From: Copromyces sp. CBS 386.78
Taxonomy: Eukaryota > Ascomycota > Sordariomycetes > Sordariales > Sordariaceae
DNA: 64,000 bases
Assembly (NCBI GenBank): GCA_030685235.1
Contig: MU839177.1
Span: 1-64,000 of the forward strand
Reading direction: 5' to 3'
In this document: positions 9,345 to 62,135 of the stretch, in pieces
Position numbering within the stretch: position 1 is the first letter of the stretch
How the letters are laid out: the number at the start of each line of letters is the position of its first letter
Notes under the pieces: model-generated
Seen by the model: only the letters and a program-made list of their open reading frames with translations
What the model was told of the DNA's origin: nothing
Databases searched by the model: none
Program-made: the position numbers and the translations under genes

Positions 9345-12300
9345 TCATACAAAGGTTACAAAACCTCGAAGCATATCGACAACTCCAGGGTCCATGGTCG
9401 ATACCCACTCCGGCTCACCCTCTTCTATCTTTGGATTCTGGTCTTTTGCCTCATTACTCTTGACACCGTTGGGTGTCTGGGGGCTGCCATGTGCAATCAC
9501 ATGAGCTGAAGGAGCTTCGATGGTGTAAGCAACAGATTTTTCCTCGTGCATAAGATCGTTGCCTCCCATGGGCACGTCGTCCCAGTCGAGATCAATCACG
9601 GTGGCTGGCTGGTTGATATTCCCAGCTGACTGTAGAATGGGCGGAACGAGTTCATCAAAGTTCATGTCAGCCCCGAGAGACTGGCTGGAAGGAGTCTGGT
9701 AGAAAACTTGGTCCTTCCCCCCAATACTGAAGGGCGATTTGGTTGTCTGCCTGTTGCTCACCTCCACCATCATACCATCGAGGATTGCAAGATCGCCGGT
9801 GTCAAATGGGTCATCCCCATCGAATTGGGTTGACAATGGAAATGTGGTGCTCTGATCTGCCACCATGCTCTGTGCTGATAACGCTGCCGGACCTCTTGCA
9901 CCTTCACCTTGGTTTTGAGTGACCGCCCAAGCCTCATTGTGTGAATACTGGCTCACATTGCTGGTGCGTTGCCCCTTGTTGGCAGTGGTTGTTGCGGTTG
10001 TCTTTCGCTGAGCACTGTCCGCAATATCCGGAAACTCGTCATCATCAAATGAAAGGTCGATGTAGTCAAAATCAACGCCGTCGATGTTTTGTTTCCGCAT
10101 GGGCAGTTCGATCTTGGGCTTCTTGTTTACCGGCTCGTATGGCTTTTCGGCGGCTTGCTTTTGTGTTGTGGGACGTGGAAGTGTCTTGTTGGCGGTCGCT
10201 TGACTTCCAGTGGATGATGTCTTTTTCAACGCCTCAAAAGACGATTGAGTAAGTACACCCTGAGACTCGGTCTTCTGATCCCCTTGCTCTGGCTCCTTCC
10301 GCTTCTTGGTAGATCGCTTTCTTGGCTTCTCGAGGCCCTCGTGACAGCACTTGTGGCTACAGGGCTTGCCAGATTTTGTAGGTGCTCCTCCGCTGCAAGC
10401 GTGGTTGCACTGCCATTTACCGTTTGGCAACTGAACAGGCTCTCGGTCTAAAATCTGGCTGTTGTCCATGTCGCCAGAATCGTCGGCCTCATTCACGGCC
10501 AGATACCTGTCAAACTTCTGATGCTCTGGCTCGCTCGCCTGTGTCACGACTTCCATGAGCTCTTCCACCTCAGGATACTCGTCGGGATCTGACTCTGATT
10601 CGTGCTTGGCTCCTTGAATGACAGGAACACAAAAGGTTGCTTCGTCAGCTGCCTGGAGCAGGTCCGAGTCGTCTATTCCATCATTATCCATGTATTCTTC
10701 GGATTTTTCTTTCAGCAGTCGCTGTGTTTGCCCTCCGTTTGTGGGTGTTGTTCTGCCCTGCCGAGATTGCTGGGATGGAAACGCCGCTAGGGGTACCTCG
10801 TGCTTCAGCATCTTCGATACGAGTGTTCCAACAATTTCCTCACAACTAAGATGGCAGACGATGCGTTCATCCGGGCTTTTTAAAGGAACGGGAAATGAAA
10901 GTACGAGACCGATCTGTTTGTCGATCTTCCTGAGACTTCCGCGCCAAAAGTATAGCAAAGTCCCATTAGAAGACTCGATCATGAATGTGAGCATCGGGCA
11001 CCTGCCCAGCCAGTTAGGGGGGCCAGTCTGGTTGAGGTACCGAAGCGTTGCTTGGACGTTGAGCGTTACATCTTCATTGCGTCTTTTCGGGGTGATGTAT
11101 TTGACGACCGACACGTCAATATCGAGACGAGGAAATTTGTCAAGATCTGCTTTCAGTTTCTTGCCAAACGGCGGCTGTCGGGACATGAGTCGCTCGAGTT
11201 CGATGCTGTCTTTCTCTGCAAACTCCAACACTGTCCGAATCCCCTTGCTTGCCAACTTCCTCATACCAACTGGTCCAATGTTGGGGATTTGGGTAAGTTG
11301 TGTTGGGCGGCCTTCCCAAGACTCGGCTGAAAGTGCCCTAGCCAGTTCCAACGCACTCTTCACTCCGGGGGCATCACGATCGAAGCCCTTGCAATCAATA
11401 ACAGCACGGACAAGACGCTGGAGTCTCTCGAATATCATCTTTTTCTCCATCATGAGCTGTCTTCTGAGCTTGGCTGCCTCAGAGGAATCCGGATACTGAA
11501 CACTCCCAAGGTGAACCTGCACAATCAGAGAGATTTTGTGTTGAGTATGCTGGACTTGCTCCTTCAGCGGATACATAATGAGCGGGTTCTTGTTGATTTC
11601 TCGGAAGAGTGTTCTTTCAGCGGGCTTTATGCGGAAGTCTTTGAACTCCACTGCTTCAGCGAGAGCATTGATCTACAGTTGGTTAGTTACTTCTTGGAAG
11701 AACGTTTGAGAAGACAAACATACCAAAACCGCAATGCCGGCAGCTCGCGGAATCTCCAAAATCAACTTCATCGTCTCAAACTCCACCATGTACTTGGACA
11801 TTGCGCGGCCATACTCTGTACATTTGAACTTTGCGTCTGCAGTCACTAACTGAGTGTTCTGCAGAAGCTTTATGTCACGCTCGCAAATCTCCTCGAGCTT
11901 ATCGTCAATCTGAGCAGGATTGGAGATGTCCCCGGTGAGTCGATAGTGGTCAGGATTTCGTCTGAGACGAACGCTCAAGAAGGTCCCGCCAAGCCACAAC
12001 TTTGCTGAAGAGATATCGCTGATTGTTCCAAGACATATCTCAGAGTTAAGATGCTCAATGAGGTTGAGATGTAGAGTGCTTTCGAGTATCTCCTGACCGG
12101 AGACCATCTTTTCGTAGCGTTGCTTGTTTGCAGCACGGGTCAGAATGACAGCGGTAGCGCTGGTATCAAACTGCGGCCGACCCGCTCGTCCTAACATCTG
12201 CATAACCTCAAGATCCGAATACTCTTGAAGCTTGTCGTCCACGAAAGCGACAGTCCCCTTCATCACCACCGTATGACAGGGGAGATTGACGCCAACGGCC

Positions 12301-14205
12301 AACGTCGAGGTGCAGCAGATGACGCTCAACTCCCCGTTCAGAAAATGCTGCTCAATGGCAACTCTGTCTTGAGCATCAACACCCGCATGATGAAAGGCAA
12401 CGCCAAACTGAACAATCTCCTGCAGTTCGCGACTGACAACTGGAATCCTCTTTTTTGGAATCGGCCACAGAGCGTTGCTTTCCGACAACCCTGAGGCATT
12501 CTCCGCCAGCATGATGGCCGTGGATTCGCATGACTTCCTCGTAAAGCAAAATACTAGAATTGGTTTCCGTTGACTGTGTTTGGAGAGCAACATGGGGAGC
12601 TTGGAGTCCAGAAACTTGTCAAAAATGAAGTCGTTTCCATTGCATTCGTATCCGTAGACAAACTTCTGCAGCTTGACAGGGCGGAACTCTTCGCCAAAGA
12701 CCTCACGGTGAGCAGGTAGCTGTTGAGTGGTTTGGTTGCGTCCCAACCATTTGGCAATGTCATCGGAGTTGGGAACAGTGGCGCTTAGTGCAACGAAACG
12801 AACATTGGCCCCGATAGTTTTCATCCGTGACACCACAGCCTCAAGGGTAGCACCACGGACGTCCTTGAGAATGTGAACTTCGTCGATGAGGAATAGCTCG
12901 ACAAGTTGGAGGAGCTTACGATGGTCCTGCCACTTGCGTGTTATGGAATCCCACTTCTCGGGAGTGGTGACGATAATGGAGGCTTCCCCGACTCGCCTCA
13001 TCTCGGCTTGAGAGGTGTCGCCAGTCAGCTCGGCACATTTCATGCCCATATGGCTGAATTTCTTCACCCAGTCCCTAGCCTTCTCGGAACAAAGAGCTTT
13101 GGTTGGAGCTTGATAGACAATCTTGAAGTTCTCGTTACCTCGATCGAGGGCAAGTTTGCAGATGGCGAGCTCCAGGATGGCCGTTTTGCCACTTCCTGTT
13201 GGTGCAGATATGACCACGTTGTCGGTGGAACCGTAGACAACTCCGAAACATTTAGATTGTACGGCATTGAGCAACTCGTAAGGGAAGACTTCCTGGAACC
13301 TGCTTGGCAAGGCCTGTCGTACACTCACTAGCCGTATACCGTGGACGATGGGGGTCGACTGAGCAGGGGTTGTGTGGGTAGCTTGGGATGGCTGCAATGA
13401 CTGAGATGTTTCCATAGGCTCTTCGGCCAGATATGACATCTGCCGGGCGCGCCTAGAGGCACTTTGCTTCTTGTGCGCGCTGGCTCGGATGGTAGGACTG
13501 GAGCTGTTTAGGCTATGAAGAGTCCCTTTGGCGGACGCTTGACTCGTGGGACTGTGTGTGTATGAAGCTGATGGGCAGGGTCAGACCGACTACTATATAT
13601 TCGGTGGGAGAACAAGACTAACAGGAATGCATCGGAGGAGTTGGCTGTTGGTGTGGGCCACACAACTCCCTGAGGCGATTATTTGGTTCACGGCTGATAA
13701 TGTCCAGTGTCCTTGGAGTCGGAATGAGGTGGTCGTCGGGAGCATGTACGCTGCTGGAGGGAGGCGGACCAGCAGACATAGGCTGGGACATCGTGGCGGC
13801 CATGTACGAGCTGTATCCGGGAGAGATGTGAGGCTGGGCATGTCTTCTAAGATGCGAGAGCGCGATCTCATATTGTTCGTCGTCACGAGTTTGCGGAGCA
13901 GGGTGGGCAAGAAGGTGGCGATATAGGATGTGTTAGACGATGGAAAGACAGAGTTCGGACCTTATTCACATACCGAAATCATCCAAAACTAGCTCGTCTG
14001 CGTATGGCTGAGGTGTTTCGGCATAGTAACTTGTTGGTGGTTCAAGCTGTCCACGGTCGTGTTCATCGCGATAGCGTTCCGGATAATAGCCTGGACGAGG
14101 TGACATGGCAAGCTCATCGCGGTCATTGAGGATTTCAGGCCTGTGCCTTTCTCGCTGTCTTTGGGCTATTCTTTGGCGTGCCGACTCGCGCCAACGTCCC
14201 GTCAT
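9345..14205 (-). CDS. mer3: ATP-dependent DNA helicase MER3/HFM1
   Basis: This is a meiotic Ski2-like DNA helicase that stabilises recombination intermediates for interfering crossovers (ZMM group); it acts in the nucleus during meiosis. Secure exons: to 13623 (second exon), 13567-11724 and 11672-9345; the introns 13622-13568 and 11723-11673 close in frame. Visible motifs: Walker A SAPTGSGKT near 13200, DEVH box near 12880, SAT near 12780, and motif VI GRAGRPQ near 12180. They are followed by winged-helix and Sec63/Brl helix-hairpin regions, then a Cys/His cluster (CNHAC, CSHKCC) near 10340-10410, typical of HFM1, and a long acidic disordered C-terminus. The 5' end is less certain. A coding-like exon 14205-13974 with a strong GTATGT donor precedes, but no AG acceptor in the right phase joins it to the next exon. 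Starting at the ATG at 13803 gives 1450 residues in frame without that exon. Confidence 0.9.
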
Positions 14206-24974: not shown

Positions 24975-27900
24975 ATGCAGTCATGTCCTGTGTCTGGTAT
25001 GGCTGGTGCTCAATGCCCCGCCGGTTCCATGTCTAGCCAGGGTAGGTCCAGCAGCCGTCTTGGACCCCGTGGTTGCTCGTTCTCGGGATACTCTCAACCT
25101 GGTGATATCCATGCCGCCTTCGATATCCCGCGTGGAGTTGATGCGGAGGAGTGGCTTCGTATGAGGTTCGTTCCCATCAATCCCCTATATTAACCTTGGC
25201 TTTCAGACAAGAAAATCGCTGACAGCCGGCTTTATCCAGGGAGCGCAAGTCCATCAATGACTTGCTATACAAAAACATACCATCAGCTCGCGAGAGTAGA
25301 GCTGTCAAAAATATTGACACCCTCACAGCCTCCGAGCACGATGTCCTTGCAGCAGCCTTAGGTGCGCCGGCGAGACAAGTCATGTTACGGGCTGAGGAGA
25401 TAGGTCCGGCAACGGGTTGGAAGGACGGTTATCTCAGTGCCGAACATGGCTTTTGCCCTCCCGACTACAACGAGGCCGCCGGAGCCCTCGCCAACTCCCC
25501 CGGAAGAATATGGTCTGACCTATGCGAACGCATGCCTGGTTGTTTCGCAAGGGGTCGTGGCCGCGAGTCGATCGCTGCCTTGCCGCTGGTTGAAGCGACA
25601 GCGGATATCATTCCAGACAAGGCGCTCTGGGCCGCCCATATCACTCTTGGACTGTTGTGTCACACGTACCGCTACGAGGAAAAGTACGACGGCAACCAAG
25701 GCGTCACGGTCAATCCTACAAAGTTCAAACCCAACTGCGAGATGGGCGATGACCTCGGTGACGAGTTTATCGGGATACCGCGATGCATCGCTCTCCCATT
25801 TCTTCAGGTTTCCCACCGAATCGGCCGACCCATCCCACATCTCACCTTTTTCGACCAGACTTCCTTCAACATGAAGCTCAAAGATCCTAATTCTACGTAT
25901 CCCTATATCGGCAGATTCGATAACATGGAAACCCGGTGGCCCATCTTTGGCGAGAGAACAGAAATGGCCTTCCAGAAGGGCTGTGCGGATACTTCGGCCT
26001 CTTTTCAACATGGTCCCGATGCCATTGCCAGCTGCCAGGAACATGTGATAAACAGAAACTCGGAAGGCCTGTTACGAGAACTAGTACGCCTGAAGGAAAT
26101 CCTCGAACGCATGCCGAACGCATTTCACACCATCAACACCAACCCGAACTCTGGAGAGAATTACGTACCAGGTCACCAGTGGGTGCGGTACGCAAGGTTT
26201 TCGGCATCCCTGAGCAAACGTTGCCCGGCCTCATCTGGCTTGCAGTCCCCCCCATACCTGGTCATGGATGCCTTCTTGGGTCGCAAAAAATACAACTCCT
26301 TCTTGGGCGCCGAAGGAATTCACCTGCGCGCATGGTTGCCTTCCAACTGGAGAGCTTTTATTGCTGCCATTGAGTATCACCACCGTATTCCCGAGTTTGT
26401 TCAACAGTCAGGAGACCCAAGGCTGATGGGTGTGCTTGATGGCATTGTCGAAGCCTACACTGGCGAACGAGGTTTCATGGGTACCCATCGATATAAGGTA
26501 TTCGGTCTTCTTGAGGTTGCCGGCAAGACTGGCCGGAGCGAAACCAATGGATTATCGGGCGCACCGGACTCAAACGCTAGGCCTTGGGAGGAAACGCACA
26601 AGCAGTTCTCGGAGGCCATGAAAGAGCGCCTCGAGCCCTATCGCGGCAATATTTCCGTTGAACCTCATGAGATGCGTGGCACCTTTGAGGAATGCCGGTA
26701 CAGGTCTCGAGTTCTGAGCCGTTCCTTTGTTGATTCGGACCCCAGTCGTTCTCTCGCCATGGTAACGTTGGACATCCAGAACACCGGCATCACTTGGCAA
26801 CCAGGCGATAGACTTGCTGTGATGCCTCTAAACAGCTGGGAAGAATGCGCCAAGGTTGCCGCGGCACTTGGGCTAGGAGACTACCTTGAGACTCGAGTTG
26901 CGTTGAGCCAGAAGTGGGAACGCTTCTCGCAGCACTTGGGCGCGGTCACTCATTCATCTCCTCCAGAGCTGACAGTCAAGGATATCTTGAGGAGAGGCCA
27001 TATTGCCCCAATCACCAAGGAACTTGCTCTCATGGTCCACGACCTTCTTCGGGCGTCATCTAATACGGTACTCCAGGTTCTTGCCACTGAGGAATGGCCT
27101 GTCAGGGGAACGCTGGGCGACTTGCTCCAGCGTGCGGTGGCTGATACCAATCCTACCATTTGGGATCGTGCATTTGACCTGACAGGTGATCTGTCGTGGC
27201 TAGCCGATCTCATTGCTGTCGAAGTACCTAGGACTTACTCAATTTCCACTTATTCGCGGGATTTGCTTCCGTCCACTGTCGACTTGACTATTTCCCGTGC
27301 TGAGTACAAGCTTTGCTCTACATTTGCTGGCGACAAGGAAATTACCTGTGCAGGTGTCGGAAGTGGTTTCCTCAACCCCTTTGTTTCATCCAGCGATGAG
27401 TTTATCAAGGCAGAAGAAGAGATCCTCATTGGGGTGTCTAGGCCCCTTAACTTCCAACTTCCTATCGACCGTGCAGCACCCTGTGCCTACTTTGCTGGTG
27501 GCAGCGGCATTGCGCCATTCCGCAGCTTCTGGCAGGCAAGGCTCGCTTCTCACCAGAACTCAGCTGGAAGGGACCTGCTCTATCTCGGAGTTCAGTCACG
27601 CGACAAATTCTGCTATGAAGATGAGTTACGAGACTACATTGATGCCGGCCTTATGGAGGTTCATCTGGCATTTTCCCGCGACACGAGGGGTCTGGTCTAC
27701 GACAAGCGGACCCACGATCTGGTCGAGAATGACATGCCGCCCCGGTATATCGATGCTCTCATAGTCGAGCAAGCTGCCACAATTTCCGAGCTTGTCATGT
27801 CCAAAAAACAAGGAGGGCTTGGAGGTTATTTGTACGTTTGCGGGTCTGTTGCTGTCTTTGACTCGGTTATGAACGGCATTCGCAAGGCCTTGTACAACCA

Positions 27901-30081
27901 CTGCAGCGCTACGATGGAGACTGTTGAGGTAATCATCAACAAGGCTTTTGCTGAACGTCGCTTTATGCTTGATGTTTTCATGACGCCCAAGCCACTGCCC
28001 TGCAACCTTCCTACCATTCCACTTTCCCAGTTAGCCCGTCAAACTGGCCATCGTCCTGGTGGTCGCATCTGGATCGGCGTACATGGCAGCGCTTATGATG
28101 TCACAGATTTCTGTCCTATGCACCCGGGAGGCACACTCATCCTCAAATCCAACGCTGGCGGCGACTGCTCCAAATCGTTTGACAATTTGGCGCATACCAA
28201 CAACCCGGAGGTCAATAGCTTGCTCACAAAGTATTTCGTTGGCCAACTCACGCCCAAGCCCGAGTTTCACGGCTGCCAAGAGCTCGGTGACCTGTATGAT
28301 CTCTGGGCTGCATATCTGCGGACGGCGGTGGAAACACTGGTGGCTCACCAGTTCCAGATGCACGAGATCATGGGCGTGGATGATGATGGGACAAATGACA
28401 ATTTCTTCCGGGGCGCTGTCAACATATGGTCCCGCGAGCATCTGGTCAATGTCGGCTTGGGTGTTCGAACTTTCTACGAGTATCAGTCACGTCTACTTCA
28501 AGGCGGATTCTCCGCGCTGTTTGGGCCCAAGCTTCAGGAACTGGTTTTGAAGCTCTCGTTCATTCTTGCAGACTCAGCGGCTGTTGGCGCGGAATCCAGG
28601 CTCCCAGATGTGCTCGGTACGATTGCACGAGCAAAAACATCGCCGGACGCGGTTGCCACATCACAGGAAGTGACATTCATTGGACAATTTGTCGGTGATA
28701 ATAACGGTGCTCGTTTTGCAGAAAGGGGCATCATGAACTATGCGGCCAAGAGTGTCGAACTTGATATCGAGTTGCTAGAGGATATTCGTGAGGAAGCGTG
28801 TCACGGCATGGACGCCTTTGGAAGCATTATGGCGATGGATGTGGCTACTGATGATCAATGGGTGACTGTCCTTTCCAGCTTCCTCATGCAGACCCTCGAA
28901 CGTATGGCGAAGCGACTCGAGATCTTCTACGCCAAACTTGCCCAACATAAGGTCTACCAACCGGAAATCGAGCGGAACCCGGCCAGGACACGATGGAACT
29001 TGGTGCGCAGAAAGATTCAGGACGGCTCATTCTTCATCTTGACTCAAGAGGCTGTCTTGGGCGCTGCGCCAGCGTTTATTCCTGCTCAGCGTCAAAATGC
29101 GGGTGTCAACTTCGATGCGGTTATGAGCCGAGTCCAAGCGAGTGATCGCAATGCTTCCCAGCCTAAGCCTCATCCCCAATCGCTTAACGCAATGCACATG
29201 GCGAGAGCGAGTGCGCCGCCCACGGAGACTACGGCAATGGCTACACATGATAACAGCATGGCGGTCCGGGCCATGTCGACGTTCATCGATAAGAACAGGC
29301 GGGCGATTAGGCGACTGAGCAAAATGCCTTCAATGCCGATGACCTTTGAGCAGTTGCAGGCCACCGTGGAGCAACGAGAACAGGAGCAGCAGCAACAAGC
29401 GGCGATGATGCAAGCCGGCGGTCGACCACCCACACCGCCCTCCAGCGGAGGATCAACCAGGTCACCATCCGTGAAAGCGGGCATGCGAACACCCCTAACC
29501 GCAGACAGAGCCTCTACGCATGCAATAACCGGTCACGAGCATCGTCAATGGAAAGACTGATGAGCGGGAGAGGTCTCAACAGAAGAAGTTCCACCGCCTC
29601 AGTCACTTCCTCTTCTCCCTTCCCCGTCCTGCCGAGCGGTGGTCACAATGTCAACAGCCACGACACGCGATATCCCCTTCGAGCACCGCCCACTCCGCCT
29701 CCTCCTGCTCCTGTTGATGCCGCGACTGCGATGAATGTGATGATGGGCAAGCTTAATGTGCGTTCTAGAGGAACCTCAATGCCGCCTGCTCCTTTGTCAT
29801 CTATGTCTGCGCAGAGCAGCGGTGGTATGAACGGTATGCTGAGTAGGACGATGAGTATGAGGTCGGTGCCAGGGCAGTTGGCGGGTCAGGGTCAGGGTCA
29901 AGGTATGGAGCTAGGACAAGCGCCAGGGCAAGGGCTATCGCGGAGTAATACTCATGCGAGCAACAAGCTGTCGACGAACTCGTTGAGGGCGTTTAGGTTG
30001 GGAACCGGTACCACTGGTGCCGGTGCGAATGGGATGGGGGAGAGAGGGAGGATGAGTACGAGGATTGCCCCTACTTTTTGA
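24975..30081 (+). CDS. Fusion: PrnB/IDO-like dioxygenase, FAD/NADPH reductase, cytochrome b5
   Basis: Exon 1 is 24975-25165 and exon 2 starts at 25240 (MR-ERKSINDLLYKN across the splice). Residues about 65-490 resemble the PrnB branch of the indoleamine 2,3-dioxygenase superfamily (IGRPIPHLTFFDQ, late GTHRYKVFG). About 540-950 is a ferredoxin-reductase module of the P450-reductase type: RTYSISTYS binds FAD near 728 and GGSGIAPFRSFW binds NADPH near 816. No FMN flavodoxin domain is visible. About 985-1060 is cytochrome b5, with HPGG near 1025 and AHTNNPEV giving the two heme histidines. About 1065-1330 is a helical region I do not recognise, then a disordered tail. The simplest inference is a self-sufficient heme oxygenase fed by NADPH through FAD and b5. 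The frame stops at 29560 (1503 residues), but a coding-like frame continues in another phase to 30081. A possible 44-nt intron 29461-29504 joins them in frame (1662 residues), with a weak donor. Substrate unknown. Confidence 0.85.
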
Positions 30082-30266: not shown

Positions 30267-30340
30267 GGTCCGATGGTGTAGTTGGTTATCACGTCAGTCT
30301 AACACACTGAAGGTCCTGAGATCGAGCCTCAGTCGGATCA
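30267..30340 (+). tRNA. tRNA-Val (AAC)
   Basis: A full cloverleaf is visible. Acceptor GGTCCGA pairs with TCGGATC, the D arm is GTGTAGTTGGTTATCAC, and anticodon stem TCAGT/ACTGA encloses loop CTAACAC with anticodon AAC. The T arm is CTGAG/CTCAG with loop ATCGAGC, followed by discriminator A. No intron; 74 bases. Confidence 0.95.
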
Positions 30341-30947
30341 CACAACTTTGATTTTTTGCGTGCCTTTCCCGCTGTCCACATTTTCCCGTTCTACTACATG
30401 CTTTCTAGTTATGGATGCACCCATTTTATGGGAATGGTTTGACGACAATATTGCCATTCATTGTCTGGTGGTATTCTTTTTTGCAATGGTTGTGGTTACT
30501 GCGTATAGGACAGTTCCATTCGAAGCAGTACATGGTGTTCACAGGATTTGGAAACAACGTCCAGGTCAGCAATCAATGAGAGGGTTGAAATGTAGGAGCT
30601 TCATTCGCCGAGCATAAAGACAGAAAAGGAGAGAAATAATCAATATTTCAATAGATATCATAATGAAGTCCATTCAAAGGTGCAAGCAAAAGGCCTACGT
30701 GCAGCTTGAACCTTGGAGCAACAAAAATTTTGGTTGTAAAACCTTGCTTTTCCTTCAACTTAACGCAACCAAAGCATCATCGTCTTCCATGAGTGTTCTC
30801 GCAGCGTATGAACAACTCGGATGCACTTATAAAAATTTCCATCTGGACGAGGTTATATCATGCATGCATTTTACTGATGCGCAAATGGGAAGAGAAAAAG
30901 AGAGGAATGAGTGGAAAGGAAGAAAAAAGAAATTTGCACAAAAGAAG
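30341..30947. other. Spacer between tRNA genes
   Basis: About 600 bases without a supportable gene. The region just after the Val tRNA has short T runs (around 30347-30357) that could serve as Pol III terminators. Confidence 0.4.
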
Positions 30948-32178: not shown

Positions 32179-34746
32179 TCCTCATGTGGGGTCATGTCAC
32201 CGAGTGGCCTAGAGTTCCTAATGTTTATTTTGAGGGAGACTTTGGGGGGAGTGGAATGTAGTTGTCTCAACGTTCCGTCTGACGCGCTGTGTGTCGTAGT
32301 GTTGTGATGTTTTAGTCATGGAATGTGCTTTCTATTTAAGTCCGGTCAGTATCCCGAAAGATGTTATGGCAGTTATTCCCGTTTTTTCTCATGCCGAGAG
32401 CCAAATCTATACAATGATCAATATTGGAACCTGAGAATTCAACGTTGATGTGCCATCGGCCGGATTCGGCAATATCACTGCGGCTCTTGATAAAAAGCAC
32501 ATGCATCGTCTACAGTGCTTGGGAACCCGGGTGAATGACAGATGCCCACGGCGCTCATGACTGAATGGATCCGCCGTTCCCAATATTGGGATTCCGCCGT
32601 GTCACGACAATGGAATTCCCTACAAAACTAGATGTTTGCTCCGGAAACCCGATTTTCTGTGGCAAAAGATCTTGCATCGCACCTTCCCCATGAGTGAGCG
32701 GGGTGGAGCCGCGGGAGCAATCAACGGCAACGACTTCCCGAGTGTTAAGACCTTCATTCTCGTGAGGCCCCCTCAGTAGGAGAAAAAAAAAAAAAAAAAA
32801 AAAAAAAACCATTCCGGACTTCAACCCCGCGACCCGGCACTGGGGCTGAAGCCGTCCTCCCATCATGAATTGAGGTAACACAACCCCCGCTTGCTGTTCT
32901 ACCAAACCAATGCAGGAACTGAATGATGCACAGAAGACGCATCATGAAAAACTTGATTGGGCTTTGCGACTTTCATGCATTGTGAATCATCTTCGGAACC
33001 CGGAGCGGCAAAATGATTGGTAGGCACATGAACTTCGCGATGATGGCCGCCGGGACGAACTTCCGAGGTGGCTTTTTACCTTACGGTAGTCTCAAGACAT
33101 GCGTGCTGATTTGATGTCGACCGCGCAAGGACGCCATATCTCTCACTTTGGTGCTGAAGTTGGATCAGGAACTTGCAAGTCGATGACGTGACTCGCAGAA
33201 AAAACCCGACCACGTTTGCTCACTCGTGTCGACTTGAGCAGCACAGCTTGAAGCCACGAAGGGAGTGAAGTTGCCAAAACTTGGTAAAGTTAACCCACAA
33301 CGGAACCTCATCGGCTTCTCCTTGCCTTTGGCAGTGGCTTCACAGTGTCGCCGAATCACCCTCCGAGCCCGCGATGCGCCACTCCCATCACGGGTTGTTC
33401 CCATCCGCCTTCAATGGGTGTAGGTGTGTGAAGCGGGCAGTACACATCACATACGCCTTAAATAAACACGAACTCCCACCTTGAGGCAAAGCGGCCAAGA
33501 ATTGCCATTATGCCATCCTGCCCACTAGTCAGAAGACGTCGTCTCTCCCTCGAAGTGACGTCTTTTTCTCAAAATGACAAATCGAAGCCCAAAAAGCATC
33601 GTGCCATGCATGAGAAAAGACCAAGAAAGCACAGCACAAAACAAAGAAAAAAAATGATGCAACAACACGCGTACCTGAGTGAGTTGCAAGCCTCTTTCCC
33701 CTCTCACAACAAAGATGGGCCCTGTAAAATTACCAAGAAAAGCGTACCCAATATTTGTCGACCTCATTCTCGCCCAGAAACTTTGCGAGCCTGTTGATCA
33801 AAAGGAGGTCTGCGGCCGGTCCCTATTGGTCGAAGTAGACACGGGACTGTGTTCCTGAGCAGCCCCGCGTCTGTGGTGTCCAAGTCGAATCCCTGTCCAT
33901 CGCTAACCCCTGTCTCATTCACCACTCCCTTGTCACTAATCTTAACTTTCTTTATTTCCCCATTGACACCGATGAGATCTCTTTCGGAATAGCTTTCCTT
34001 CCTTCGGCTTCATGGCTTGGGACCTCTTGGGACCGGTTGGGAAGACTTGTGGCTGGCTTATTAACCCTGGGAAAATGACATACTATGTGGGCGGGATGGA
34101 TCTCGAATTTCCACGAGGTCGGTTATAAGCGTAGATGATGAAAGCGACTTCGTATGACAGGCCTTTGAAAGCCCACCAAACATGTGAAGGGATTTGCAGC
34201 TGGATTGCTTTTCCTCTTTCTTTTTTTCTCCGAGAGCATGCAAATATGCAGGGGTGGTTGAAGGTGATCGACAATCGCCCACACCAACACGGGCCAAGTG
34301 CCTGAGCTGAGCTGAGGTGTGGTGGACGTAATGGACGGGACCTGCATTCATTGTCACCATGTCCACATGCGTCCTTTCGACGCTTGTTAGGCATGGAGCT
34401 GAGATTTGTATATCATCTCCTCTCCGTTCCGTTCCCATGGTGACTGCCCTGCCATTGAAATTCTGGCCCATGCCATGCCCATGCCCATTGTCTCGAATTC
34501 CACTCTTCGATAAGTTCCTTCCCCGGACCGATCATTGCTGGGTGGGCGACTTCCCCATGGGCAACCTGCGCGCATCAGTGATCCGCTAAATCTCCTTTAA
34601 AGCCATGTAGGACCCACCCCTTTTCAGTTCCTGATCAAGAGAGCCGATCATCTCTGGTCTTTACCAGGAGTAAGGGCCTCGTTTCTTCATGCTAACCAAA
34701 TAGTTCCCTCGTCGCATCCAGTCACTCTTTGCACACTTTCTTCAGG
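32179..34746. other. Gene-poor spacer, 2.6 kb
   Basis: No supportable gene. It holds the 26-base A tract listed separately. Short frames at 33165-33800 and 34061-34590 overlap on both strands and lack features. The last 150 bases are the presumed glucanase promoter and leader. Confidence 0.45.
32783..32808. repeat. 26-base poly(A) tract
   Basis: An uninterrupted A homopolymer. Read on the minus strand it is a long T run that could end a Pol III transcript. Read on the plus strand it could be the tail of a retroposed sequence. Neither is supported further: the sequence next to it on the minus strand has tRNA-like D-loop and B-box fragments but does not fold as a tRNA. Confidence 0.85.
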
Positions 34747-37518
34747 ATGCGCAGCCACTCGTTCTTCCCTGCCCTAATAGGGCTTCTCCCTCTTGTTCCA
34801 GTTTCGGGTGTGGTTGCCTCTCCCTGCCACCCGCACGGTCCTGGCAATCATGGCGTGGGTCATCATGCTGGTGGTGCCCATGGTGGTGCTCCCGGAGGAG
34901 GAGACCATCATACTGGAACTGGCGATGGCTATGGCCCGGGGGGCAGCCATGGCGGCCCCCCCGGATTCCCTCCCAACGGCACCCACGGCTATCCCCCGTT
35001 CAACGGCAACGGTACCCATGGTGGCGGTTTCCCTCCGTACAATGGCAATGGAAGTTCACCCATAACTACCACCACCACCACCACCACCGCCGCCGGTGCT
35101 ACCACGACCACAACCACCGGCACGACTACCACCACCGGCACCACCACCACCACCTCCGCCACGTCTACTGCCAGCCCGACTGCTTGCAGCGACTACTGGC
35201 TCGAAAACATTGCCCACCAGGGCCTCGCTCCCTATGCCACCGTTCCGGAATATAGGGTCTTCCGCAGCGTCAAGGAGTTTGGCGCCCGAGGCGATGGCAT
35301 CAATGATGACACCGACGCCATCAACGCCGCCATCAGCTCCGGAAACCGATGCGGCCCGGGATGTGATGGTTCTACCACGACCCCGGCTACCGTCTACTTC
35401 CCGCCTGGCACCTATCTCGTCTCCCGACCCATCAGAGACTTCTACTACACCCAGATCATCGGTAACGCAAGATGCCGGCCCGTGATCAAGGCCAGCGGAA
35501 ACTTCACTGGCCTTTATGTCATTGACAGCAACCCATATCAGAACACTGGTAAACTAGCCTGGACCGCTACCAACGTCTTCTGGCGCCAGATTTCCAACTT
35601 CGTCATTGACATGACAGCTGCGCCACCAACCACAGATCCTAGGGCAGGTCTGGCAGGTATCCATTGGCCTTCTTCGCAGGCCACCTCCATCACCAACGTC
35701 GAGTTCGTTATGTCCATGGACACCGCGACAACACAGCAGGGCATTTTTATGGAGGAGGGATCCGGTGGCTACCTTGGCGACCTGACCTTCAACCATGGCC
35801 GCTATGGCCTTCAAGTTGGTAACCAGCAGTTTACCATGCGCAACCTGGTGTTCAACAACGTCCAGACCGCCATCAGGCAGATCTGGTCTTGGGGATGGAC
35901 GTACCAAGGCATCAGCATCAACAACTGCAGCGTTGGCTTTGACTTCACCGCAGTTAGCGACGATCCCAACACATTGGGTCTATACTCGGTCGGCTCCATC
36001 ACCATCCTCGACAGCTCCATTAGCAACACCCCCATTGGTATGCGGATTGGCAATGCCAACGCCACCATCGACACGCGATCCGTCAACAACTTCATCTTCG
36101 AGAACATTGCTCTCAACAACGTCCCCGTCGCCATCCGCAACGAAAACGGCGCCGGCAGCGACGCCCTCGTCGGCACGCCCACCAACACCGTCATCCGCGC
36201 CTGGGGCAAGGGCAAAGAGTACAACACGGCCACCACCTTCAATAACACCGCCGGCACTCCCATCCCGGGCACCTTTACCCCCTTCGCGCGCCCCGCCAGT
36301 CTGCTCGGCCCCGACGGCCGCTACTACGCCCGCTCCAAGCCTCTCTACACCGACCTGCCCGCCTCCTCTTTCCTCAGCGCGCGCTCCTTCGGCGCTGTCG
36401 GCGACGGACAGAAAGACGACACCCAGGCGCTCAACCGGCTCTTCGCCGCCGCCGCCCTACAAGGCAAGGTCGCCTACATCGACCACGGACAATACATCGT
36501 CACCCGTACCATCTTCATCCAGCCTGGCACCCGCATCACGGGCGAGTCGTACCCGCAGATCGTTTCCGCCGGCAACTACTTCAACGACGTCCTCAACCCC
36601 AAGCCTGTTGTGCAGATTGGTACGCCAGGCCAGCTAGGCAGCATCGAGTGGTCCGACACCATCGTCTCCACGCGCGGGCAGCAGGCCGGCGCCATCGGTA
36701 TCCAGTACAACCTCGACAGCGCCGCCGGCGGTGCTCAGTTGGGTCCTTCGGGCATGTGGGATGTGCACGTCCGCATCGGCGGATTCAGGGGCTCCAACCT
36801 TCAGCTGGCGCAGTGTGCGAAGACCCCCACGATCAACGCCAACGTTCCCACCAACATCAAGCAGGAGTGCATCGCCGCCTTCATGAGCATGCACATCACC
36901 ACCAGGTCATCCGGTCTGTACATGGAGAACTGCTGGTTCTGGGTAGCGGACCACGACATCGAGGACGAAGCCAATAACTCGCAGATCACCGTGTACGCCG
37001 GCCGCGGGCTATTGATCGAGTCCCTCGCGGGCCGGATCTGGCTGGTCGGCACCAGCGTCGAACATCATCAGATGTACGAGTACCAGCTCTGGGAGACGAA
37101 TAACATTGAGATGGGCCAGATCCAGACCGAGACGGCGTATTACCAGCCCAACCCGGATGCCAGGTTGCCGTTCCCTGTCGATCTGCGGTTCCATGACCCC
37201 CTGTTTGGCCCCGGCCAGGACGGATGGGGTTTGAGGATCGTGAACAGCAGAGGCGTTAGGGTGTATGGTGCTGGCCTTTACAGTTTCTTTAATAACTATG
37301 ACCAGGACACGTGCATTCCGGGAAGGAACTGCCAGAGAAATATTTTCTCATTGCAGGGCCCGCTGAATGATGTCTCGGTGTATAACCTGAATACGGTCGG
37401 CACGACGTATATGGCGACGGTGGGTGGGCTCCGGGATATCATCCCGAGCGCGGATAATGTGGGCATGTTTGTTGCTGCTGTTGCGTATGTCCATACCTCT
37501 TCTGCCAACTGGACGTGA
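34747..37518 (+). CDS. Secreted GH55 exo-beta-1,3-glucanase
   Basis: A glycoside hydrolase family 55 enzyme, which releases glucose from beta-1,3-glucan and is used on the fungus's own wall or on other fungi. It is secreted: signal peptide MRSHSFFPALIGLLPLVPVSG at the first ATG. Residues about 25-105 are a His/Gly/Pro-rich segment and about 105-145 a Thr-rich linker encoded by ACC repeats, probably O-glycosylated. The two parallel beta-helix halves follow. Each begins with the family hallmark: VKEFGARGDGINDDTDAIN in the first, and ARSFGAVGDGQKDDTQALN in the second, with YFPPGTYLV and YIDHGQYIV. The single exon encodes 923 residues, within the family's range once the extra N-terminal linker is discounted. 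The linker is unusual, since most GH55 proteins go from signal peptide to catalytic module directly. Confidence 0.93.
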   Translation: MRSHSFFPALIGLLPLVPVSGVVASPCHPHGPGNHGVGHHAGGAHGGAPGGGDHHTGTGDGYGPGGSHGGPPGFPPNGTHGYPPFNGNGTHGGGFPPYNGNGSSPITTTTTTTTAAGATTTTTTGTTTTTGTTTTTSATSTASPTACSDYWLENIAHQGLAPYATVPEYRVFRSVKEFGARGDGINDDTDAINAAISSGNRCGPGCDGSTTTPATVYFPPGTYLVSRPIRDFYYTQIIGNARCRPVIKASGNFTGLYVIDSNPYQNTGKLAWTATNVFWRQISNFVIDMTAAPPTTDPRAGLAGIHWPSSQATSITNVEFVMSMDTATTQQGIFMEEGSGGYLGDLTFNHGRYGLQVGNQQFTMRNLVFNNVQTAIRQIWSWGWTYQGISINNCSVGFDFTAVSDDPNTLGLYSVGSITILDSSISNTPIGMRIGNANATIDTRSVNNFIFENIALNNVPVAIRNENGAGSDALVGTPTNTVIRAWGKGKEYNTATTFNNTAGTPIPGTFTPFARPASLLGPDGRYYARSKPLYTDLPASSFLSARSFGAVGDGQKDDTQALNRLFAAAALQGKVAYIDHGQYIVTRTIFIQPGTRITGESYPQIVSAGNYFNDVLNPKPVVQIGTPGQLGSIEWSDTIVSTRGQQAGAIGIQYNLDSAAGGAQLGPSGMWDVHVRIGGFRGSNLQLAQCAKTPTINANVPTNIKQECIAAFMSMHITTRSSGLYMENCWFWVADHDIEDEANNSQITVYAGRGLLIESLAGRIWLVGTSVEHHQMYEYQLWETNNIEMGQIQTETAYYQPNPDARLPFPVDLRFHDPLFGPGQDGWGLRIVNSRGVRVYGAGLYSFFNNYDQDTCIPGRNCQRNIFSLQGPLNDVSVYNLNTVGTTYMATVGGLRDIIPSADNVGMFVAAVAYVHTSSANWT

Positions 37519-60576: not shown

Positions 60577-62135
60577 ATGAAGACCAACGGAGTTGCCAAA
60601 GCAGCTCTTGCAGTCGGACTCTCAGCCACTGCCCTCGCCCAGAATTGTGGCAAAGTTCTTGTCCCATCATATGACCTCCCCGTTGTTGCGGCAGGATGGC
60701 AGGCCCAACTGATCGCCGGCGAGTTGACCAAGCCCCGAAGCCTTCAGTTTGATAGCTCGGGTGCGCTGCTGGTTGTTGAGAGCGGAAAGGGTATTACTCG
60801 CCATACGCTCAAAGACAATGGAGGCACTTGTATCTCGGTCTCTGAGTCCAAGACACTCATCGATGAGAAGACGGTACGTTTCCATTGAGCTATGGAAGAA
60901 ACAAAGTAGCTAACAATTCACAGCTGAACCATGGCATTGCCCTCTCCAAAGATGGCAAGACCCTCTACGCATCTTCCGCCTCGGCCGTCTATGCCTGGGA
61001 CTACGACTCCAAGGCCGGCACCGCCAGCGGCAAGCGCGAGATCGTCACCAACATGAGCAACAACGACCTCGTGACCCGCACCCTCCTCCTCTCGAAAAAG
61101 GAAGACGGCTACCTGCTAGTCTCGCGCGGCAGCGCCGACGGCAACGAGGCCCAAGCCGAGGTGCTCAACAACGGCCTGTCGCAGATCCGCGCCTTTGACA
61201 TCTCCAACTTGACTAGCTCCACCAAGGCCTACAACTACAACGAAGACGGTGTCGTGCTCGGCTGGGGCCTGCGCAACTCGGTGGGAGTCGGCGAGCACCC
61301 CACCACGGGCGGCATCTACGCCGTGGAAAACTCCATCGACGGCGTCACCCGCAACGGCAAGGACATCCACGAGAACAACCCGGGCGAGGAGCTCAACTTC
61401 TTGGGCTACCTCAACGGCACCAAGACCGCCAACCAGGGCCGCAACTACGGCTACCCCAAGTGCTTCGCCGTCTGGGACGTTTCGGAAATCCCCGAGAACG
61501 ACAACCTGAAGGTCGGCTCGCAGTTTGCCATCACCGAGGAAAACGCCCAGACCGTCTCGGGCAATAAGTTGACAGACGAAACCTGCGCCTCCGACTACGT
61601 CGCGCCCCGCCTCACTTTCCCGGCCCACTACGCCCCCATCGACATCAAGTTCGCTCCCAAGGGCGACGTCGCCTACGTCACGTTCAGGGGCTCCTTCGAC
61701 AAGGCCGACCCCGTCGGTTACCGTTTGTCCGCCATCTCCTTTGACTCTTCGACAGGCGAACCTACCGTCAGTGCTGAAAACAGCCGTGACGCTCTCAAGG
61801 ACATCATCACGAATCAAGACAACAGCGTCTGTCCCGATAAGTGCTTCCGCCCTGTCGGGATGGCGTTTGATTCGGAGGAAAGATTGTGGATGACGAGCGA
61901 TAGCACGGGCGAGATTTATGTTTTGTTGAAGAAGGAGGACAGCCCAACAAGCACGGAGGATGGGACGATTGTTACGGGGACGGGTAGCCCCGAGAGCTCT
62001 GCGAGCCCGACGAAGGCGGGTGGTAATGGGGATGATGACAGTGCTGCGAGCAGCCTTTTGGGTGGTGGGTGGGAGACGAGGGCTTGGCTGTGGGCGGGGG
62101 TTGTGGGTGTTGCTGGGGTTTTGGCGCTGATGTAG
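60577..62135 (+). CDS. Secreted AA12 pyranose dehydrogenase/sorbosone dehydrogenase-like protein
   Basis: A predicted PQQ-dependent sugar dehydrogenase of the L-sorbosone-dehydrogenase/AA12 type, which oxidises aldoses or aldonic-type sugars outside the cell, possibly feeding electrons to other secreted redox enzymes. Exons 60577-60873 and 60924-62135; 1509 nt, 502 residues, phase-0 intron with CTAAC branch. A signal peptide is at the start (AALAVGLSATALAQ). The propeller shows KPRSLQFDSSGALLVVESG, LNHGIALSKDGKTLYASS, GWGLRNSVGVGEHPTTGGIYAVENSIDGV, NNPGEELNFLG, ANQGRNYGYPKCFAVWD, LTFPAHYAPIDIKFAP, and GDVAYVTFRGSFD. A Ser/Thr/Asp linker and a final hydrophobic segment (WLWAGVVGVAGVLALM) indicate a GPI anchor or membrane tail. 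With the beta-propeller at 38002-39678 this makes two PQQ-type proteins in one window. Confidence 0.9.

Follow-up and report, generated by a model that had tools for sequence, protein, structure and literature searches.

To our knowledge, the indoleamine 2,3-dioxygenases (IDOs) known otherwise are single-domain proteins. In the usual assay, human IDO1 is reduced artificially with ascorbate and methylene blue; which reductant it uses physiologically is described as unsettled in the accessible part of PMC13142367. The same source reports that IDO1 accepts electrons from NADPH-cytochrome P450 reductase (CPR) in vitro, with or without cytochrome b5, and cytochrome b5 has been proposed as the major IDO1 reductant in yeast and human cells (accessible part of PMC4191572; titles cited in PMC13142367). 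Here we report on a gene of the fungus Copromyces sp. CBS 386.78 that encodes an IDO fold, a CPR-type reductase and a cytochrome b5 in one polypeptide and thereby unites exactly these components. The gene is located on the + strand at 24975..30081 of the window, which is the whole analyzed stretch of 64,000 nt from contig MU839177.1 (genome assembly of 49.8 Mb). No published description of an IDO-reductase-b5 fusion was found in the literature searched, in which subscription journals are thinly covered. With a probability of roughly 0.5, the protein would be a self-sufficient, NADPH-fed heme oxygenase of the IDO fold, probably acting on a substrate other than tryptophan.

The open reading frame (ORF) at 25262-29560 (+) comprises 1432 codons, and all residue numbers (D336, H409 etc.) are ORF numbers counted from 25262. 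A Pfam scan of the ORF returned four families above their cut-offs, namely IDO (residues 58-387, 53.4 bits, cut-off 26), FAD_binding_1 (PF00667; 480-679, 42.8 bits), NAD_binding_1 (PF00175; 745-792, 30.0 bits) and Cyt-b5 (PF00173; 930-996, 50.1 bits). Beyond these, nothing matched at E<=1, neither a flavodoxin (FMN) domain nor a P450 heme domain nor the oxygenase domain of nitric oxide synthase (NOS). The IDO-fold domain (25358..26650, +; residues 33-463) is followed by an FAD-binding domain of the CPR/NOS/CysJ type with the RTYSIS motif (26699..27298, +; Pfam and Foldseek) and an NADPH-binding domain with GGSGIAPFR, FSRD, VCGS and the C-terminal F906 (27419..27979, +; Pfam and alignment with neuronal NOS, nNOS). 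A cytochrome b5 domain with axial H954 and H978 (28049..28249, +; Pfam and PDB cytochromes b5) and an all-helical domain (28268..29086, +; residues 1003-1275, AlphaFold2 (AF2) model) complete the folded part. A sequence-only reading of this DNA had proposed a dioxygenase-like domain, an FAD/NADPH module without FMN domain, a cytochrome b5 and a helical domain. All motifs quoted in it are present in the ORF translation, its b5 domain and its FMN-free reductase module were recovered, and Pfam gave IDO, FAD, NAD and Cyt-b5 above cut-offs and none for the helical domain, which is predicted to be a helix bundle.

A homologue search with the window protein gave 372 matches at E<=0.001, and a search with protein P0102 gave 343; the best 120 listed of each together represent 166 distinct proteins. 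According to precomputed annotation, all four Pfam domains are present in 158 of them, and the other eight are without one or two. The fusion is therefore neither a chance event nor a chimeric gene model, and at the level of annotated sequence it is confirmed as a real, single-gene arrangement of four domains. Two of the matches listed are 96% identical to the window protein, and the named match of highest identity among the best 120 listed comes from Pseudoneurospora amorphoporcata (P0010, 89%; Sordariales). The fusion was found in Sordariomycetes, Eurotiomycetes (Phaeomoniella), Leotiomycetes (Phlyctema) and Dothideomycetes (Zopfia), and among the matches listed some species, e.g. Colletotrichum sublineola and C. 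tofieldiae, have two distinct clusters. In the prokaryote contigs searched, no confirmed relative was found. Database names of the relatives include 'sulfite reductase alpha', 'NADPH-hemoprotein reductase' and 'related to nitric-oxide synthase', and once 'putative indoleamine 2,3-dioxygenase' (P0149). Conservation was counted in an alignment of 167 rows and in a wider set of 287 rows, with gaps excluded per column. The mean fraction of the majority residue was 0.83 in the IDO, 0.78 in the FAD, 0.82 in the NADP, 0.89 in the b5 and 0.69 in the helical domain. As its conservation matches that of the reductase domains, the IDO domain is not decaying.

In the reductase half, R657, Y659 and S660 of the FAD motif and S805, R806, C860 and F906 of the NADPH domain were identical in 167/167 rows. 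The same was true for the b5 histidines (H978 in 167/167 rows, H954 in 166/166 non-gap rows); the roles given to all of these residues are those usual in their families. The best Foldseek matches of the FAD domain were FAD domains of P450 BM3 (4dqk, E 5.4e-16), and nNOS (1f20), which aligns to residues 650-906, gave the best score for the FAD/NADPH half. The b5 domain, poorly modelled by AF2, matched PDB cytochromes b5 with a best E of 3.6e-11. The distance between RPWE and PGDR, which leads from the C-terminal helix of the IDO domain to the FAD domain, was 71-72 residues in 132 of the 133 measurable models.

The arrangement resembles P450 BM3 (CYP102A1) and CYP505, in which a CPR-type FAD/NADPH domain is fused behind an N-terminal heme domain (putative in our case). 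Unlike these enzymes, the fusion is without P450 and FMN domains, and its b5 is located after the NADPH domain. With NOS it shares an FAD/NADPH half that scores best with nNOS and extends to the same terminal aromatic residue, but neither a NOS oxygenase nor an FMN domain was found in the Pfam scan. Similarly, FAD and NADPH domains are common to the diflavin reductases (CPR, NOS, BM3, CysJ), whereas no FMN-binding flavodoxin was found here. An FAD domain and b5 in one chain are typical of b5-reductase fusions, to which NCB5OR and nitrate reductase also belong. Such fusions are known in fungi (accessible part of PMC4557397). In contrast to the fungal cytochrome b5 reductases treated there, which carry an N-terminal b5, the flavin part of our protein is CPR-type, b5 is C-terminal and an IDO fold is attached. 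Compared with IDOs, the fusion protein carries its own reductase and b5.

All PDB sequence matches and all listed fold matches of the IDO domain were IDO1 or IDO2, with about 20% identity in the structural alignment. Of the 'PrnB/IDO-type' assignment made earlier, the IDO part stands by sequence and predicted structure; PrnB was not among the listed matches, which excludes nothing. We regard the fold and the cofactor domains as nearly certain. Human IDO1 (5ek2_A, 403 residues) served as reference, and its alignment fixes the numbering. The equivalent of Asp274 is required for heme binding in the IDO fold. Its counterpart D336 (codon 26267..26269, +) was Asp in 166/166 non-gap rows of the 167-row set and in 198/198 of the wider set. 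The Arg343 counterpart was Arg in 166/166 and 192/194 non-gap rows, respectively, with Lys in the remaining two.

The title of Littlejohn et al. 2003, cited in PMC13142367, identifies His346 as the ligand of the IDO1 heme. MPPAHR corresponds to IDO1 residues 299-304 in the 5ek2_A alignment, and the histidine of MPxxHR is therefore His303. This refutes the earlier view of MPxxHR as the proximal-histidine segment. A possible loss of catalysis had been argued from LPSNWRAF in its place. The argument is not borne out because W363 (codon 26348..26350, +) is the counterpart of His303, which is not the iron ligand, and thus says nothing on catalysis. The W363 column is variable (L128 W19 H11 V4 M4, one gap; n=167), and a FastTree phylogeny of 164 rows, rooted at the midpoint, gave 17 parsimony changes for it, one of them maybe due to the P0010 gap.

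In contrast to IDO1, IDO2 and the fungal IDOs, the His346 column of the ungapped alignment (M406) is hydrophobic throughout the family (M182 L6 F3 I1; 192 non-gap rows of the wider set), and an invariant histidine, H409 (codon 26486..26488, +), is located three residues further on. H409 was His in 165/165 non-gap rows (n=167; gaps in P0010 and P0143) and in 190/191 of the 287-row set, where the remaining row, P0175, drops out of the alignment at this point. It was retained even where neighbouring residues changed (GTHRYK to STHSFK in P0025 and P0027). V413, four residues after H409, was Val in 166/166 and 190/190 non-gap rows; in the three other IDOs of the genome, the residue four positions after the ligand histidine is Val in two and Ala in the third. 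In the predicted model, the helix is broken at GERG (model residues 381-384) and restarts at 385, which would permit a shift of the ligand position by one turn. These observations make H409 the favoured, although not proven, candidate for the axial heme ligand. The sequence-only reading had named GTHRYK as a possible alternative ligand site; the invariance of its histidine agrees with this, whereas the ungapped alignment places M406 in the ligand column. Two further histidines of the IDO domain were invariant in non-gap rows of the wider set, H354 (195/195) and H446 (184/184), and may be alternative heme ligands.

On this basis, we infer a heme in the IDO domain, an electron path, an oxygenation and a substrate class. 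NADPH would reduce FAD in the CPR-type half, and FAD would hand single electrons straight to the fused cytochrome b5, which would stand in for the absent FMN domain. The b5 would then reduce the heme of the N-terminal IDO-fold domain, probably via His409. The ferrous heme would bind O2 and oxidise an aromatic or indole-like substrate, while the helical domain and the tail would probably dock or localise the enzyme. A built-in NADPH-FAD-b5-heme chain, as suggested from the sequence, is thus upheld as a plausible design, with IDO fold, reductase and b5 in one chain. IDO turnover is started by one reducing equivalent and P450s are re-reduced in every turnover, and IDO, MarE and PrnB are described as able to monooxygenate (accessible part of PMC12921851). 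Because a tryptophan dioxygenase needs a priming electron only, a tethered NADPH reductase would best fit an electron-consuming reaction, i.e. monooxygenation, and this analogy points to such a reaction rather than to tryptophan cleavage. A more specific version is tentative and falls clearly short of even odds: a widespread self-sufficient monooxygenase of ascomycetes, with a His-ligated IDO-fold heme, b5 replacing the FMN domain of the BM3 plan and the ligand moved by one helical turn to His409.

Several points weigh against an NADPH-fed heme oxygenase. The heme in the IDO domain is so far putative, and the predicted model carries no heme and has a mean predicted local distance difference test (pLDDT) score of only 66.4. 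The IDO1 alignments, in which Tyr345 is paired with F405, stop at Tyr345 or one residue short, and an ungapped IDO2 alignment sets M406 against the ligand histidine. Arg231, the substrate-binding arginine of IDO1, is without a secure counterpart; the hand-aligned position reads K142 L10 R5 Q3 F1 (161 non-gap rows). Among the accessible parts of the literature, the reported activity of human IDO1 with b5 is lower than that with methylene blue (PMC4191572), the in vivo action of CPR and b5 on IDO1 is termed unclear (PMC13142367) and the PrnB product was not obtained with b5 and CPR (PMC11791213).

We consider the main rival unlikely. Here the IDO fold would be heme-less or non-catalytic, serving as a scaffold, binding or regulatory domain, and the enzyme would be an NADPH-cytochrome b5 reductase for an external acceptor such as a desaturase, a P450 or a sterol enzyme. 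The hydrophobic His346 column, the intact reductase and b5 residues counted above and the b5-reductase fusions of fungi (accessible part of PMC4557397) are consistent with it. However, the Asp274 counterpart and H409 are invariant in non-gap rows, one truncated model excepted, and the IDO domain is conserved as strongly as the reductase.

A fourth tryptophan dioxygenase, serving the kynurenine or NAD pathway as an otherwise ordinary IDO whose heme the tethered chain keeps in the ferrous state, is less probable still. The IDO fold and the support of IDO1 by CPR and b5 in vitro (accessible part of PMC13142367) speak for it. Against it stand the prevalence of Lys at the Arg231 position, the low identity to IDO1 and IDO2 and three other, stand-alone IDO genes elsewhere in the genome, L005 (C161), L006 (C118) and L008 (C102). 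L007 and L010 are listed with L006 on C118. The three genes apparently represent the alpha, beta and gamma sorts of fungal IDOs, a naming taken from the accessible part of PMC5786828. Least probable of all, the protein would sense gas or redox state or would handle NO or nitrite, with O2 or NO bound to an IDO-fold heme that the reductase would cycle: the architecture parallels flavohaemoglobin, an O2-binding globin heme domain joined to an FAD/NAD reductase, and two N-terminal Cys-Pro motifs presumably recall heme regulatory motifs, but the Pfam scan contained neither a globin nor a NOS oxygenase domain.

The helical domain was modelled by AF2 (308 residues) with fair confidence (pLDDT 76.5, predicted template modelling score 0.68). 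It matched no Pfam family at its cut-off, Foldseek gave nothing at E<=0.001 and no informative structural match, and a search of the own genome returned a single match and no second copy. Of the folded parts it shows the lowest conservation (0.69 versus 0.78-0.89), so that a docking or dimerising role appears likelier than catalysis.

The gene most likely starts at the ATG at 24975 and contains a single intron, because P0010 covers exon 1 (24975-25166) at 98% and the P0010 and P0003 matches pick up again at 25238. In the N-terminus encoded by exon 1 (24975..25165, +), a Cys-Pro motif occurs twice (MQSCPVSG..CPAG), together with RGCSFSG. The intron (25166..25239, +; 74 bases, GT..AG) keeps the frame and was picked because it yields ...RMRERKSIN as in P0010 and P0003; three further splice pairs would likewise preserve the frame, and the P0001 gene model has a different start. 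LGAPARQV is preceded by 85-125 residues in 107 models, of which 87 contain CPx[STA]G, 81 a second CP and 92 GCxFS.

The low-complexity tail (29087..30081, +) carries a basic IRRLSK motif and a C-terminal SLRxFRL..APTF. Near 29504 it contains a single frame change relative to the homologues, which may be real or an assembly error. The change may be shared with relatives, since P0010 (P. amorphoporcata) and P0001 are modelled differently across this region. The C-terminus of the relatives is encoded up to 30078 in a frame different from the main ORF, in agreement with the gene end at 30081 given earlier. Of 149 full-tail homologue models, 110 end APTF-like and 124 have an SLRxFKL-like motif. Within 29300-30081, the short motifs IRRLSK, SLRxFKL and terminal APTF are kept in many relatives; conserved tail motifs of this kind are possible localisation signals.

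A tRNA-Val gene (anticodon AAC; 30267-30341, +) is located immediately downstream of the fusion gene. At 9348-13439 (-), two ORFs with DEAD helicase, SNRNP200_wHTH and Sec63 Brl matches are probably one split gene, which we take to be similar to the meiotic helicase HFM1/MER3. The window also contains a pectate-lyase-like protein (34729-37518, +; PF12708 in two stretches) and a TrAA12-like protein (60885-62135, +; PF22807).

As a naturally occurring combination of IDO fold, CPR-type reductase and b5, the fusion would serve as a model for the electron feeding of such hemes and may represent a one-protein, NADPH-driven biocatalyst. Furthermore, it would correct the 'sulfite reductase' and 'NADPH-hemoprotein reductase' labels on a family present in four classes of ascomycetes.

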